From assembly GCA_030601675.1 (NCBI GenBank), contig JAUWBN010000006.1, forward strand, positions 1-47,684: a DNA stretch of 47,684 bases, written 5' to 3'. Under the pieces are notes generated by a model that had not been told where the DNA came from, did not search any database, and saw nothing but the letters and a program-made list of their open reading frames with translations. A program made the translations under genes and the position numbers. Source of the DNA: Hadesarchaea archaeon (GTDB taxonomy: Archaea > Hadarchaeota > Hadarchaeia > Hadarchaeales > Hadarchaeaceae). Shown here in pieces: positions 15,924 to 30,554 of the stretch (the first letter of the stretch is position 1; each line of letters opens with the position of its first letter).

Positions 15924-18900
15924 TCAAATTTGGATTTTCTCGTATTTGTAAATAACGTGACCCGTTGGTGGGCAATTTGAAAGAGAGAGATTTATGCTAA
16001 CCGAAGCTGCGCCCTCACCAAAGGCGAACGTATAACCGCCCGGTGCTCCATCCACATAATTTACAACATTTTCGTCTAATGGACCGCTGTCATTTCTAGC
16101 GTCAACCAAGCTCCCGAACTGCCCACACCTTAGCAGCGATGGGGGCCCGCTCAGGTAATCAAATCTAAACCAAGAGGGGCTCAGCACTCCCTCTCCTATT
16201 TCCGTTTCCTCCGATTTCAGAATCCAACTTTCGCTGTCACCCTCAACGAACTCAAAACCGGGGGGTGCTTCACCTGGTCCCGGTCCAGGCCCAAGTTCAG
16301 GTGATTTGGCGCTGAGGATATTTGGGGGCTCGCAATAGTACATCCGGTAGGTACCATCCGGGAGTTCAACCACATCAGGATCGTAAATTCCACCTGCCAA
16401 CCTCGCTCCCTCCTCCTTCGTCCAAGTCAGACCGTCGGACGAAATAGCGCTGTAAATACCTCCCTCCTCCTCTCGACCGGGCGGAGCTACAGTATAAAAC
16501 ATTCGATAGGTCCCGTCTGAGAGCACAATCACGTCGGGGTCCATGCGCTGCGCTGGTATCCCGCTGATTGTTTCTCTTTCCCAAGTCCACCCGTTGTCTG
16601 ATGAAATTGCGCATCGAACGGTGTTCTGGTTCTCCTCAGGGCCCTTGTTGAACATGTCCCCGACGTAGTACATTCTGTATCTGCCATCTGGAAGCTCGAT
16701 GATTTCTGGGACGGAGATCGCCCCGTAGTCTGGCGCTCCTTCGCTTTCAAGTCTTATGCCTGATTCCTTCTCCCATATGAGTCCGTCTGTTGAAATCGCA
16801 CTGACAAACCATAAGTGCGCGTTAGGAGGTTGTCCTTCCTGTAAATCGTAAATCATCCTATAGCTGCCATTATCAAGTTGTATTATTGCTGGACAGAAGC
16901 CATTTTCAATCATTACCCCACTCTCTTTCGTCCACGCCAATCCATCCGATGAAATGGCGCTAAAAATGCTCAGGTGGTCGGGGTCGGGCCCCGAATTGTA
17001 ATACATCCGGTAAGTGTTATCTGGGAGCACGATGGTGCACATAGGCACTCCATTAGACACTCTTACGCCGCTTTCTTTCACCCAATCTCCACCAAGTCCC
17101 GGCCCCATCGGCATTTCAATCCCCTTAACGACCGATGCGACGGCAAGCGCTAGTACAACAACCCCTCCAACGATGATGCCCTTCCTCAGCTTCTCGAGCT
17201 TCTCGCCGGATGTTATTCTTCGAATCGCTTCCCACGCCAAGCACGGCAGAAACACCCACAGCAGGACGGTGAGGGGGATCCCAACTATAAACTTCGCGGC
17301 ACCCGGAATCACGTACACCGGCGCGAGCAAGATTTTGAGCGTGAGCGGCTCCTCCTCTTGGGCTTGTTGCTGGCCCCCCTGTTGGCCCCCTGGAAGCTGC
17401 TGATTACCAGGAAGTGGCTGCTCTGCAGCTAAAGCGAAATCGCCTTCTTTGGGGCCGGAGGGAAGATGGTTTCCAAGCAGGCTAAACTTCTCGCTCAATG
17501 CATATGCTCGCAGGCTCGGACGGCTGAAGATGAGCTTAAACAGCTGCTCGTTTTCCAAAATTTGTGTGCGCTCGTGCTCCTCCGTGCTTGCAAGTGCGTA
17601 AATATTCTCCCCCACCTGTTGTTGCCCCATGTACCATTCGGCGGCTAGCTCTGAGGCGTTAATTTGCCCCCCGGATGGCCCTCCTAACATGCTAAGGTGC
17701 GTTATCACCTCTCCTCCCTGAATGGTCCCCTTCAGCCCGACAGCATCCGGCCAGTAAATAAATCGCTCACCGCTTCCGAAAACGTAAACATCGCCGAACT
17801 GTTGGTGAAATTCCTGCAGGGCGTTGTATTCCTCCATTGTTATCGTCGGTTGAAGTTGACGAATTTCACCTTCTTCCCAAACGAAAGTGTGGCAGGCGCG
17901 TACTTGCTGAACCACGACGAACAAGAGCAAGCACAGGAAAACGGCACACCCAGCCATCGTGACAACCCTATGAGATCTCAAGCGGCCTTTGCCTAGTAAC
18001 GCTTGGAGGTTTTTCCCCGCCCTCCAAAGCAGCGCTCCAACCCCCTCAACGAGACCGACCGCCGCTAGCAGCACCATTGGTGTAGCTAGCATTATGACGA
18101 ACCTCCAATTATCGTATGCGACCCAAGTCTGTGCCATTATCAGGGCGCTCATACCCCACGCCAGCAGGAAGAAATCGGCCGGCTTTCTGCGATATGCTGC
18201 AATCCCCGCGCCGATGGCTGCGAGTACCAGCAATAACTGCCCGATATAATCGTTGTAGAGCACATGTAGCACCCCCTCCGGCCCCTGACCTCCTGGTGGC
18301 TGCTGTAGCTCTCCCTGGGCCACTAGGGTTGCTGCCTGCCCCTCGCCCGCCATGCCTCCTATCGTCCCCAGCTTCCCGATGTAAAAGTACCCGCAGATGA
18401 GGGCGACGGGTATCGCGATGATAATTGCAGCTTTGAGCTCACGCCAGGGTATGCGCCTGCGGTAGGCGAGCAAGAACGCGAGGTAACAGATGTACGCAAT
18501 GACCAAGGTGCCGAATGCCAATTCGTGTGTTAGCCCGACCACACCGAGCGCGATTCCGGCGACGACAAAATCTAGCTTCCTCTTACTCTCCAGCCCACGC
18601 CATAGGAAGAGCACGGGCAGAGGGGCCAGGGCCACGCCAAACGCATTCTTTTGGAGTTCGCCCATCATTCGGAAGCTGCCGGGGACGAAAGCGGAGAGAA
18701 AAGCTGCCGCTAAGGCCGTCGCGTCGTTCTTCGTCAGCCTCCTTACCATCAGAAAAGTCGTCAGGGCAACTAGCCCCGAAGCTAGCGCGGTGGCGATATT
18801 GAAAGATGTCATCAGCGAGACGCCGAACGCTGAGAGTATTGTACAGACCCCGGCGGCGAAGTGGAAGAAAACTGGAGGGGATGAAAGAAATGGGTTCGAG

Positions 18901-19112
18901 GGGTAGTGGTCGAGCAGGTAGCCCACGTGGAAGAGGTGATAGGGCCCGTCCCTGCCCAAGGGGAGCCCGTGCCCGAGGGTCACCGAGAGCCGCAGGTAGA
19001 GCGCGCCAGCGAATATCACCAACAAAACAATCAAGATAAGCGCCTGCTTCCTGCTCATCCGGAGAGGCGCGGTCACCAAACGTTTGAGCGCACCTATGCT
19101 AGGTTTCACCAC
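15924..19112 (-). CDS. Giant membrane protein: GT-C-like transferase with five-repeat beta-propeller tail
   Basis: A 1062-residue protein. Residues about 20-445 carry many membrane spans with a GT-C glycosyltransferase look: an early luminal loop GLPLGRDGPYHLFHVGYLLD with an Asp (like the first acidic motif of STT3/PMT enzymes), then alternating hydrophobic spans. Residues 450-600 form an extracytoplasmic domain with a Gln/Pro-rich linker, and further spans follow at about 625-670. Residues about 674-940 contain five repeats of about 50 residues, each with a LPDGTYRMYY-like strand (TYRMYY, SYRMIY, RYRMYY, TYRMFY, TYRMYY) and most with a SxDGLxWxKE strand. This is the pattern of five-bladed propellers such as GH43/GH32-like or BNR proteins. 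A beta-rich C-terminal domain (940-1062) follows. The acceptor and donor are unknown; joining a membrane transferase to an outside propeller suggests cell-surface glycan work. Confidence 0.7.
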   Translation of the reverse strand: MVKPSIGALKRLVTAPLRMSRKQALILIVLLVIFAGALYLRLSVTLGHGLPLGRDGPYHLFHVGYLLDHYPSNPFLSSPPVFFHFAAGVCTILSAFGVSLMTSFNIATALASGLVALTTFLMVRRLTKNDATALAAAFLSAFVPGSFRMMGELQKNAFGVALAPLPVLFLWRGLESKRKLDFVVAGIALGVVGLTHELAFGTLVIAYICYLAFLLAYRRRIPWRELKAAIIIAIPVALICGYFYIGKLGTIGGMAGEGQAATLVAQGELQQPPGGQGPEGVLHVLYNDYIGQLLLVLAAIGAGIAAYRRKPADFFLLAWGMSALIMAQTWVAYDNWRFVIMLATPMVLLAAVGLVEGVGALLWRAGKNLQALLGKGRLRSHRVVTMAGCAVFLCLLLFVVVQQVRACHTFVWEEGEIRQLQPTITMEEYNALQEFHQQFGDVYVFGSGERFIYWPDAVGLKGTIQGGEVITHLSMLGGPSGGQINASELAAEWYMGQQQVGENIYALASTEEHERTQILENEQLFKLIFSRPSLRAYALSEKFSLLGNHLPSGPKEGDFALAAEQPLPGNQQLPGGQQGGQQQAQEEEPLTLKILLAPVYVIPGAAKFIVGIPLTVLLWVFLPCLAWEAIRRITSGEKLEKLRKGIIVGGVVVLALAVASVVKGIEMPMGPGLGGDWVKESGVRVSNGVPMCTIVLPDNTYRMYYNSGPDPDHLSIFSAISSDGLAWTKESGVMIENGFCPAIIQLDNGSYRMIYDLQEGQPPNAHLWFVSAISTDGLIWEKESGIRLESEGAPDYGAISVPEIIELPDGRYRMYYVGDMFNKGPEENQNTVRCAISSDNGWTWERETISGIPAQRMDPDVIVLSDGTYRMFYTVAPPGREEEGGIYSAISSDGLTWTKEEGARLAGGIYDPDVVELPDGTYRMYYCEPPNILSAKSPELGPGPGPGEAPPGFEFVEGDSESWILKSEETEIGEGVLSPSWFRFDYLSGPPSLLRCGQFGSLVDARNDSGPLDENVVNYVDGAPGGYTFAFGEGAASVSINLSLSNCPPTGHVIYKYEKIQI

Positions 19113-27023: not shown

Positions 27024-30000
27024 CTAGGTCTGCACGGTAAATGTCCAAACGGAAGACTCGTTCTCATTACCTGCTTTATCGATCGCGATTACCTTCCAGG
27101 AGTAATTATCATCTGCCAGACCTGTGGTCGGGGTGTAGGTGTTTTCGGGTGCCGCAAGGGTGACATTGATCTCAGGCGATGAGAAGTCCGAACTGTTGTC
27201 GACGAGCAGGCGATGCTCCGCTGCCCCGGCGCCAACCGTCCACTCAAACGTTGGGGTGTTATTGCTCGTTGTCGTCCCATTTTCTGGTGCGTGGAGCGTT
27301 GCCGCTGTGGGTAGAGTGGTATCAACGACGAACGTCCATACCGACGAGGAGTCTTGGCTTCCCCCGACAATCGCGATTACCTTCCAGGAGTAGTTGTCAT
27401 CGCGTAAAGCATTCTCATCGGCCACCACGTAGCTGTCGATTATCCCGAGCCGGACGTTCTCTTCAGGCGATAAAAAGTCAGCATCATTATCCACAAGCAG
27501 GCGATAATTATCTGCATTACCTTCAGCCCACCCAAAAGTTGGAGTGTTGTCGTTCGTGATCGTCCCATCAGCTGGTGCGCTAGGCGTTGGGGCTCTCGGC
27601 GGCGCCCTGATGATGAGCTTGTAGTTGTCTGACCACCCGCTCGCGTTACCAGTCCGATCGAAAGCTTGAACGCGCCAGTAATAGGTGCCGTTGTGGGAGA
27701 AGAGATACGTGTATGAGTTTTCCTTGATGTCGGAGTTGTCGTGCACGTAAGGTGGGGAGAAACTCACCTCATCGTCGATTTGGGTTCCATAGGTCACGTT
27801 GGGTTCAGGCTCCGTCCATGCGAATGTAGTTTGTAAAGTGTCGAGCTCAAAGTTGTTCTCTGGCTCGCGGAGCTGCGGACTCCCTGGCACCTGGGTGTCG
27901 ACGACGAAGGTCCACGTGGGAGACCACCCGAGCTCGGTGTTGTCAGCTCTGAATGCCATAACCCGCCATGAGTAAGTGTCATCTACCAAGGCGTTCTCAT
28001 CCGGTATCGTATGCGTAACAGTAGAAATGTTTTCTCTTATCTCGGGTGAGGTAAAGTCTGCATCGTTGTCCACCCATAGCTCGTATTTCACCGCATCAAC
28101 AGCACCCGACCACACAAAGGTCGGAGTGTTGTCGCTCGTGGCTGTGTTATCCGTGGGTGAGGTCAACGAAGGCTCATGGTAGACCTTCACCACCTTGACC
28201 AAGCCGTTTGAGCTTGTGTAAGCCACCCCAATGAAATCTGGGATAGTTCCTCTCCCTTCGAAAACGCGCATGAGTATAGGTAACCCGTGTTCCGTAGGGG
28301 CGGTCAGCTGTGCGTGGGTCTGATCCCATGTCGGTGCTTCCACCCAATCCGGCACGAGAATCCATAAGACTTGTGGTATTGCCGGGTCTGGTCTTAAACT
28401 GTAGTCAAGGATCCGCGTTATGTAACCCCCTTGATTGAAAAACGCCCTTACCCAGCCAGCTAAGTGAAGGGTTTCGTCATCCCTCGCTACATATGCCTCC
28501 CACGATTGAGGGTCGAAAAAAACGTTTTCGTCGCTGAAAGTGTAAAGTATTTTTCCATCTTGTATGCTCCCCGATGTGGTAGAATTTTGAACCCCTCCAC
28601 GACGAGTAGCCCAAATTGCTGTATTGTACAAGTATCGGTGGAAAATAACGTAGTCGATTCGAACTCTATAGTTGTCCCTGTAAGTTTTGAAATAAAAAGC
28701 GAGTTCGTTATCATCGGTTAAGGTTGGAAGGTATTGAACATCTGTGCGTCTACCGTTGATAGTCCAGTGGGATTTTAAGAAAATGCCTGTTGAATCCTCT
28801 ACGTAATAAACGTAGTCGGGTGGATAATAGGGCCTATCCTCATTCTCCCAAATCCCTATTTCCCCACGATCACCACCTGAGCCGTCCACCACAGATGCAC
28901 GCCTGGCAACACCTGTCATCAAATGTCCGAAGGACCACTCTATGGCGACCACTGAATTTTCGGGCGTGTTCTCGCGAAGCCAAGCGAAAGAGTCCATGAA
29001 CCCTTCGTCCAACCCATACCCATGCCACTCGGTCGGAGGGGTGGTGCGCCCAGCGACGGCGCGCGCATTGAAGATAAACGTTGTCGCGACTATGCAGACA
29101 CAAAATGCGATCACAACTGAGTCGTGGAGGAAGTGTTTTAGCCATTCTCCAAACTGTTCGAACGATAACCGCCAGACGAGAGAGACCAGCACCGCCGCGC
29201 CCACACCAGCTAGGACAGGCACAAAGGGCCACCACATCCGTTCGAATCGCACCTGCGCCAGCCCTGCTCCAGGCCATACCATCGCGGCGATGACGATCAA
29301 CCAAGAGAGGGACAGTAACCCCCAACGTTTTTTACGCCAACAAAGCATAACCAACGCTAAAACTGCTAAGAGGAAAACAAGTACAGTTAAAACAGCTGCA
29401 TTGCCTTGTTGAGACAAGCTGGTATTAGGATCTCCGCCATACATCCGGTAGACTGTATCCCCCCACGAGTTCGGCGCAGCTTCCTCCCCCGCGACCCTCC
29501 CAAATGAAATCCCCTCGCCAACGCCCCCAATCCCGACACCACCCAAGAGAGATCGGCCGAAGCTGACCCACATCATGGGGCTTTGTCCACCCAGTATGCA
29601 AAGTGCAAGCGTCATTACTGCCAGCATGCCAAGCACGTTGACTATTAAAGGGATATTTGTACGCACGCCTGTTAGAATCCGCATAAAGAGGGAGCTTATA
29701 GATGCACGATGTAAAAATAGCTCTATAAGGGCGGCAAGGATGAGCCCGCCTATTAAAATATAGACTAAATTCATCACGCTGCCGGGGGTCCCCCCTCCTT
29801 TAAAGATAGCCCCTATGAAACCTGTAAACAATAAGAAAACACCGGCTAGAATCACAGGTAACCAAGTTAGGCGTTCGCTGAGTAGGACTAAGAGTAGAAG
29901 TCCAATCACGATGGGGGCAATGTAGAGAGCCCCGGACCATGCCAACCCGAAAAGCCCGTATACGAGCCCCGCTAAGAGCGCAAACTTCGGCATCTCGCTC

Positions 30001-30554
30001 CGTGGGGCCTTGAACAGCTTTATTGTGAAGTAGATGGTCCATATTCCCAAGAGTAGCTGGATCGGCTCCCGGTCGAATGCTCCGACCTTGTGCCAATAGA
30101 TGCTCGAGGTTAGGGTAGCTGCGAAAAATGCTGCAGCACAACCACCGAGGTTTCCCCCAAGTTCCCTGCCGGTCAGGAAAATTGGGATGATCGAGAGGGC
30201 AAAAAGCAGTGGAGCCCAATAGCGAACCACATCCATCAGAGTTACGCTTGGGTTAATGGCGTGGACGCCCCCGTAGAGCATTACCGTTATCAGCGGTTGG
30301 GCTTGCTCCGTAAGGCCAACAGATGCTGCGTAAGGGGCGCGAGAGAGACGGTTATTTTCTACCATGCCGCGGGTTTCATCTATATCCACGGCGATGTCGT
30401 AGAACCATCCGCTGTCCGAGGTAGTCAGCGTGTCGTACTTTTCGCCCGGGATCAGAAGCACTGAAGTCGTAAAAGCCATCAGGGCAAGCAGGTAACCGAC
30501 GAGCAGCCATCGTCTGTAATTCAACCGTGCACCCACTAAACTGAGGTCAGCCAA
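27024..30554 (-). CDS. STT3/AglB-type oligosaccharyltransferase with four FN3/Ig-like repeats
   Basis: A 1176-residue membrane enzyme likely to transfer lipid-linked glycans to asparagine of surface proteins. Residues 15-500 carry about 12-13 membrane spans. The first outside loop holds an acidic motif (TSDSGWFYDIAVDIDE, about residue 45), and a second loop holds YWHKVGAFDREP. The position of the catalytic-domain WWDYG motif reads IEWSFGHLM near residue 540. It sits after ENTPENSVVA, as in other STT3 proteins, so Trp and Gly are kept but WDY is replaced by SF. From about 795 to the end, four repeats of about 95 residues with D(N/D)TPTFxW and YSWKV(I/M)A strands resemble FN3/Ig-like domains and should be outside the cell. 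Parts of the repeats are still near-identical at DNA level. Confidence 0.85.
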   Translation of the reverse strand: MADLSLVGARLNYRRWLLVGYLLALMAFTTSVLLIPGEKYDTLTTSDSGWFYDIAVDIDETRGMVENNRLSRAPYAASVGLTEQAQPLITVMLYGGVHAINPSVTLMDVVRYWAPLLFALSIIPIFLTGRELGGNLGGCAAAFFAATLTSSIYWHKVGAFDREPIQLLLGIWTIYFTIKLFKAPRSEMPKFALLAGLVYGLFGLAWSGALYIAPIVIGLLLLVLLSERLTWLPVILAGVFLLFTGFIGAIFKGGGTPGSVMNLVYILIGGLILAALIELFLHRASISSLFMRILTGVRTNIPLIVNVLGMLAVMTLALCILGGQSPMMWVSFGRSLLGGVGIGGVGEGISFGRVAGEEAAPNSWGDTVYRMYGGDPNTSLSQQGNAAVLTVLVFLLAVLALVMLCWRKKRWGLLSLSWLIVIAAMVWPGAGLAQVRFERMWWPFVPVLAGVGAAVLVSLVWRLSFEQFGEWLKHFLHDSVVIAFCVCIVATTFIFNARAVAGRTTPPTEWHGYGLDEGFMDSFAWLRENTPENSVVAIEWSFGHLMTGVARRASVVDGSGGDRGEIGIWENEDRPYYPPDYVYYVEDSTGIFLKSHWTINGRRTDVQYLPTLTDDNELAFYFKTYRDNYRVRIDYVIFHRYLYNTAIWATRRGGVQNSTTSGSIQDGKILYTFSDENVFFDPQSWEAYVARDDETLHLAGWVRAFFNQGGYITRILDYSLRPDPAIPQVLWILVPDWVEAPTWDQTHAQLTAPTEHGLPILMRVFEGRGTIPDFIGVAYTSSNGLVKVVKVYHEPSLTSPTDNTATSDNTPTFVWSGAVDAVKYELWVDNDADFTSPEIRENISTVTHTIPDENALVDDTYSWRVMAFRADNTELGWSPTWTFVVDTQVPGSPQLREPENNFELDTLQTTFAWTEPEPNVTYGTQIDDEVSFSPPYVHDNSDIKENSYTYLFSHNGTYYWRVQAFDRTGNASGWSDNYKLIIRAPPRAPTPSAPADGTITNDNTPTFGWAEGNADNYRLLVDNDADFLSPEENVRLGIIDSYVVADENALRDDNYSWKVIAIVGGSQDSSSVWTFVVDTTLPTAATLHAPENGTTTSNNTPTFEWTVGAGAAEHRLLVDNSSDFSSPEINVTLAAPENTYTPTTGLADDNYSWKVIAIDKAGNENESSVWTFTVQT
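27064..27440 (-). repeat. Near-identical DNA segments inside the FN3-like repeats
   Basis: The segments around 27084-27110 and 27370-27400 share the stretch ATTACCTTCCAGGAGTA and surrounding bases almost exactly, one repeat length (about 285 bp) apart. They encode matching YSWKVIAI strands, suggesting fairly recent tandem duplication of a domain unit within the glycosyltransferase gene. Confidence 0.6.

Follow-up and report, generated by a model that had tools for sequence, protein, structure and literature searches.

In two known relatives of the protein considered here, bacterial PglB and archaeal AglB, the Trp-Trp-Asp of the WWDYG motif and the Ile or Lys of the MI or DK motif together make up the pocket for the Ser/Thr hydroxyl at position +2 of the acceptor (PMC7226087, PMC3527161, PMC3703281, and PMC8342417). 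Plasticity of the WWDYG segment has been described (PMC3703281), and substitutions within it inactivate PglB (PMC3527161). Moreover, exclusion of Pro at +1 is regarded as a hallmark of the oligosaccharyltransferases (PMC8342417). Campylobacter PglB needs an acidic residue at −2 in addition to the +2 Ser/Thr (D/E-x-N-x-S/T), which are read by R331 and WWD (PMC7226087 and PMC4894442). Here, we compare these systems with an enzyme encoded in a 47,684-nucleotide stretch of DNA (the window) that belongs to a metagenome bin of Hadesarchaea, within the uncultured Hadarchaeota, which a preliminary description had called AglB-like, with EWSFGH at the STT3 signature position, and for which it had raised the possibility of a different acceptor sequon.

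Fold, catalytic residues, and distribution of the enzyme

The open reading frame (Table 1) encodes an STT3/AglB-type enzyme. Pfam STT3 matches it at 38.6 bits (cutoff 24.5), and a phmmer search against solved structures aligned both halves of the 1176-residue protein with human STT3B, while placing residues 517-566 against human STT3A/B with EWSFGH exactly below WWDYGY. The same register (WSFGH = WWDYGY) was given by hhalign when a profile of 19 relatives, drawn from three families of the order Hadarchaeales, was compared with ten canonical archaeal AglBs (probability 100, E=1.8e-40). In the AlphaFold2 model (mean pLDDT 75.9, pTM 0.76), both the GT-C multi-spanning domain and the C-terminal globular domain are present, and the best 19 Foldseek matches are all STT3, PglB, or AglB, with the C-mannosyltransferase DPY19 next.

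Table 1. Positions in the window of the enzyme, its domains, and its motifs
Feature	Coordinates	Strand	Evidence and remarks
STT3/AglB-like enzyme, Hadarchaeales WSYG type	27024..30554	minus	ORF, 1176 aa, TTG start
Multi-spanning membrane domain, residues 1-502	29049..30554	minus	AF2 helices; best Foldseek matches STT3, PglB, AglB
TTSDSG, first DXD site, D47	30408..30425	minus	hhalign; D47 in 17/17 covering sequences
GAFDRE, second DXD site, D161 and E/D163	30066..30083	minus	hhalign; both in 18/18 covering sequences
A-[S/G/T]-E, TIXE/SVSE loop glutamate E357	29484..29492	minus	hhalign; E357 in 18/18 covering sequences
Extracellular domain, residues 503-795	28170..29048	minus	[ED]N at 6/11 Asn, 1.5 expected
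EWSFGH at the WWDYG position	28923..28940	minus	phmmer, hhalign; [EQ]WS[YFH]GH in 19/19 relatives
Insertion specific to the lineage, following WSFGH, residues 558-605	28740..28883	minus	Invariant W-x-N, P-P-D, G-R-R-x-D
Y-x-x-A helix at the DK/MI position, neither DK nor MI	28617..28628	minus	A646 in 17/19; register uncertain
Four Ig/FN3-like repeats, residues 796-1176	27027..28169	minus	Pfam Big_13, repeat motifs; missing in many orthologs

With canonical archaeal AglB (Archaeoglobus fulgidus, PDB 7e9s/3wak), the Hadarchaeal enzyme shares the GT-C fold and extracellular domain, both DXD acids, and the glutamate of external loop 5, where the T-I part of TIXE is not preserved and E357 is. In contrast, it carries [EQ]WS[YFH]G for WWDYG, an apparent Y-x-x-A for DK/MI, and an insertion after the motif. 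The change at the signature position is larger than had been claimed and affects three of the five residues, namely the first Trp, Asp, and Tyr (W-W-D-Y-G to E-W-S-F-G). Across the 19 aligned relatives, W540, S541, G543, and H544 are invariant, and since [EQ]-W-S-[YFH]-G-H is found in every one of them, the variant motif is not a product of chance. Where the STT3/AglB/PglB family has WWDYG, all 19 sequences read [EQ]WS[YFH]G, and the alignment check for a canonical WWDYG at other positions of the protein found none. With the catalytic acids intact and no +2 reader, a different acceptor rule is to be expected.

A partly comparable change was seen in a distant archaeon (G029) that has three STT3 genes, one with an altered WWD pocket. 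This EWNYG paralog (G029:C1:233564-234745, L033) resembles the Hadarchaeal enzyme in that the first Trp and the Asp of WWDYG are changed, but it lies outside the WSYG family and is accompanied by two more STT3 copies, L060 having WWDFG.

When the encoded motif was scanned in 84,980 species genomes, relatives turned up only in Hadarchaeota or closely similar archaea, those with names being Hadarchaeum and Hadesarchaea genomes. The search for a second, canonical AglB that the preliminary description had called for found none in 27 Hadarchaeales genomes, by either a Pfam STT3 search or a canonical AglB profile search. G001, the single genome that represents a different order of the phylum, on the other hand, has a canonical AglB with AWWDYGYW. 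The Hadarchaeales thus probably have no AglB-type oligosaccharyltransferase other than the product of this gene, a judgment that we make jointly with the sequon reading set out below. The earlier proviso that WSFG might be common among ordinary AglBs of the lineage held in part: the motif is common there, but its bearers are not ordinary AglBs, being the only AglB-type enzymes found in a lineage whose surface proteome also shows a changed motif. The canonical AglB gene of G001 (G001:C10:6632-9205) lies near a gene of the Alg7/GPT family (PF00953) on the same contig, and no member of this family was detected in the 27 Hadarchaeales genomes, a point against the sequon reading proposed below. The pathway that supplies the donor may therefore have been altered along with the transferase.

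Residue pairs in extracellular and cytosolic proteins

To characterize the target proteome, we sampled about 0.8 Mb of G022, 0.4 Mb of G026, and parts of the window's own genome (G000) and 13 other Hadarchaeales genomes, with control stretches from G001 (same phylum) and from two other archaea (G030 and G037), all three having WWDYG. Open reading frames were called simply, and a simple hydrophobicity rule separated extracellular parts from cytosolic proteins free of TM segments; such crude sorting should dilute an [ED]N signal, not create it. Every residue pair at gaps 1-3 was then scored without bias as observed versus expected. In canonical G037, the top extracellular pair was N-x-T (97 vs 43 expected), and the scan can therefore recover a sequon.

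In the Hadarchaeales, a different pair came first. The top two extracellular pairs were E-N and D-N in both G022 (601 vs 167 and 302 vs 134 expected) and G026 (408 vs 99 and 199 vs 55), and the extracellular parts from the window's own genome gave 65 vs 17 for E-N and 93 vs 22 for D-N. In cytosolic proteins, by comparison, E-N stood at about 1.28x in G022 (up to 1.29x) and 1.07x in G026, and D-N at 0.69x and 0.65x, respectively. Moreover, [ED]N was enriched 1.8-5.0x in each of 13 separately tested Hadarchaeales genomes, while G017 yielded no extracellular sample. The controls gave 0.93 for E-N and 1.05 for D-N in G001 (the sister order), 0.96 and 1.13 in G037, and 1.64 and 0.83 in G030.

Hadarchaeal extracellular parts also differ from the targets of canonical AglB in that N-x-S/T occurs at chance (583 vs 582.6 expected, 1.00x) while [ED]N is enriched. 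The missing N-x-S/T enrichment is by itself weak proof, because two of the three control genomes likewise show none, with N-x-S/T at 0.94x in G001 and at 0.79x in the extracellular proteins of G030, which has a canonical WWDYG. For a Nitrosopumilus S-layer protein, too, no clear N-glycosylation has been reported (PMC12153357). What carries the case instead is that an [ED]N-{P} signal is present and coincides with the loss of the +2 reader, which we regard as strong sequence evidence. The proteome statistics lend strong support to the earlier suggestion that the acceptor sequon differs, [E/D]-N-{P} being enriched extracellularly only and N-x-S/T not.

A candidate acceptor rule and its alternatives

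We consider it likely that the WSYG enzyme N-glycosylates [E/D]-N-{P} in place of N-{P}-[S/T]. With slightly less assurance, we propose that the swap is order-wide in the Hadarchaeales and would give the first STT3-type sequon without a +2 hydroxyl. Our search of the literature on Hadarchaeota N-glycosylation or an [E/D]-N sequon found nothing, an absence that is not proof. The behavior of proline at these sites is one sequon-like feature: in extracellular parts, Pro followed [ED]N in 9 of 1666 cases against 162 of 2321 for other Asn (p=2e-28), while in cytosolic proteins the difference (91/960 against 469/5881) was not significant. Around the extracellular [ED]N sites, Pro is depleted at +1 only (0.16x); that it is not excluded at +3 counts against the reading. 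At −2, E is depleted (63 vs 143 expected), and at +2 there is no S/T excess. The bacterial PglB-type rule, D/E-x-N-x-S/T, was rejected on these two counts. While PglB belongs to the same superfamily and likewise depends on an acid before the Asn, the Hadarchaeal proposal differs from it in placing the acid at −1 and in not requiring Ser/Thr.

The identity of the acting enzyme invites an alternative that we hold to be unlikely, namely that [E/D]-N is a real surface-protein motif served by some other enzyme, with the WSYG enzyme having either relaxed glycosylation or another acceptor. After all, the STT3 variant is tied to [E/D]-N by correlation, and other GT-C proteins are present, as with the 1062-residue protein encoded at 15924-19112 of the window (minus strand), which is of PMT_2 type and weakly STT3/Agl23-like. 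This PMT_2/Agl23-type protein shares the GT-C fold with the WSYG enzyme, and its first external loop likewise bears an acidic motif, but it has no recognized WSYG/WWDYG-type domain and is patchily distributed. Its family, represented in just 8 of the 28 Hadarchaeota genomes, is not found in G022 and G026, both of which are strong in [ED]N, and in G026 the sole PMT_2-type match is the WSYG enzyme itself. From such a patchy distribution, the paralog is unlikely to be the enzyme responsible. More generally, the +1 Pro exclusion is that of an oligosaccharyltransferase (PMC8342417), and no GT-C protein other than the WSYG enzyme was found throughout the order, exactly its +2 reader being lost. As a separate observation, the C-terminal repeat region of the 15924-19112 protein weakly resembles the propellers of glycoside hydrolase families 32/43, and it is unusual for a transferase and a glycosidase-like module to be joined in one protein.

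Whether the pair marks a modification at all is a second matter. Since many extracellular proteins are repeat-rich and raw counts are inflated by repeats, the [ED]N excess might be a structural or compositional habit of Ig, FN3, and β-propeller surface domains, the enzyme then being a degenerate or relaxed AglB. This seems to us quite improbable, for with one protein counted per family, 41 of 50 extracellular families still lie above the [ED]N expectation (p=5.6e-6), compared with 107 of 230 in the cytosol. The signal also extends to polytopic membrane proteins, whose outside loops hold 48 [ED]N vs 17.4 expected and whose inside loops hold 19 vs 16.7. Moreover, acid and Asn are lost jointly: in across-genome alignments, the acid is retained at 336 of 383 positions (88%) where the Asn is retained and at 128 of 395 (32%) where the Asn is lost, while the same measure for all other second residues gives 56% and 52%. 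Neither this joint loss nor a Pro exclusion confined to +1 is an effect of composition, and surface proteins of G001, G030, and G037 are without the signal. Weakest of all, and highly improbable, is the notion that N-x-S/T is still used via a differently built pocket while [ED]N serves something else: the conserved catalytic acids and the plasticity of the WWDYG segment (PMC3703281) speak for it, but WWDYG substitutions inactivate PglB (PMC3527161), and extracellular N-x-S/T sits exactly at expectation, which is a weak argument alone given that G030 and G001 are alike in this.

Returning to glycosylation of [E/D]-N-{P} by the WSYG enzyme, we infer that an N-glycan is the mark at [ED]N and that this enzyme is its maker; the link between enzyme and sequon is correlative, since the change occurred once in evolution as far as the data go and the sister order is represented by G001 alone, which itself lacks N-x-S/T enrichment. 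As we picture it, the enzyme would have retained the fold together with the acids for metal binding and activation of the acceptor carboxamide, and would have lost the WWD (apparently also the DK/MI) pocket for the +2 Ser/Thr hydroxyl. The acceptor Asn would most likely be held between D47 and E357, as in other oligosaccharyltransferases, and the backbone register forbidding Pro at +1 would most likely be retained, with a side chain read at −1 instead of +2. Hadarchaeal-specific residues may read this acid, such as the invariant GRR within the insertion, and the insertion with its G-R-R-x-D is our candidate for the −1 reader, in a region that is poorly and unreliably modeled (pLDDT <50 in AF2). 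The lipid-linked glycan would then be transferred to an Asn that directly follows Glu or Asp and does not precede Pro.

If this acceptor rule is true, pocket and sequon have both changed, which would separate what catalysis needs (metal site, acids, and Pro exclusion) from what is mere recognition, and would explain how a whole proteome can exchange one target signal for another. In practical terms, sequon predictors and standard glycoproteomics searches would miss all sites in the Hadarchaeales, and glycoengineering would gain an enzyme with a two-residue target.

The Ig/FN3-like tail

The four FN3-like repeats described at the C-terminus are real, as judged from Pfam Big_13 and from two repeat motifs, TxTFxW (at 810, 909, 1004, and 1100) and YxWRVxA (at 861, 958, 1055, and 1151), that recur in units of about 95 residues. 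The accompanying suggestion of a tether to the cell wall or to substrates is unsupported, since some orthologs have the tail and others do not, even within one genus. The orthologs of G006, G010, G021, G022, G019, G005, G024, G026, and G027 lack it, and several relatives end just before the repeats, among them orthologs from the window enzyme's own genus and family. With nine tail-less genomes, the tail is ruled out as an essential part or as a wall tether in general.

Within the window protein, the tail has 31 Asn, 21 of them in [ED]N (4.7 expected), the extracellular domain has 11, 6 of them in [ED]N (1.5 expected), and the membrane half has 12, only 1 of them in [ED]N; no [ED]N of the tail or extracellular domain is followed by Pro. 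Ig/FN3 domains are found in giant surface proteins of Hadarchaeota as well, so the enzyme has probably taken over its tail from such proteins, with the tail in turn probably being glycosylated. In G026, one cluster of such giant surface open reading frames (G026:C1, about 82000-133000) encodes proteins of 7934, 5630, and 3149 residues with Ig/FN3 repeats.
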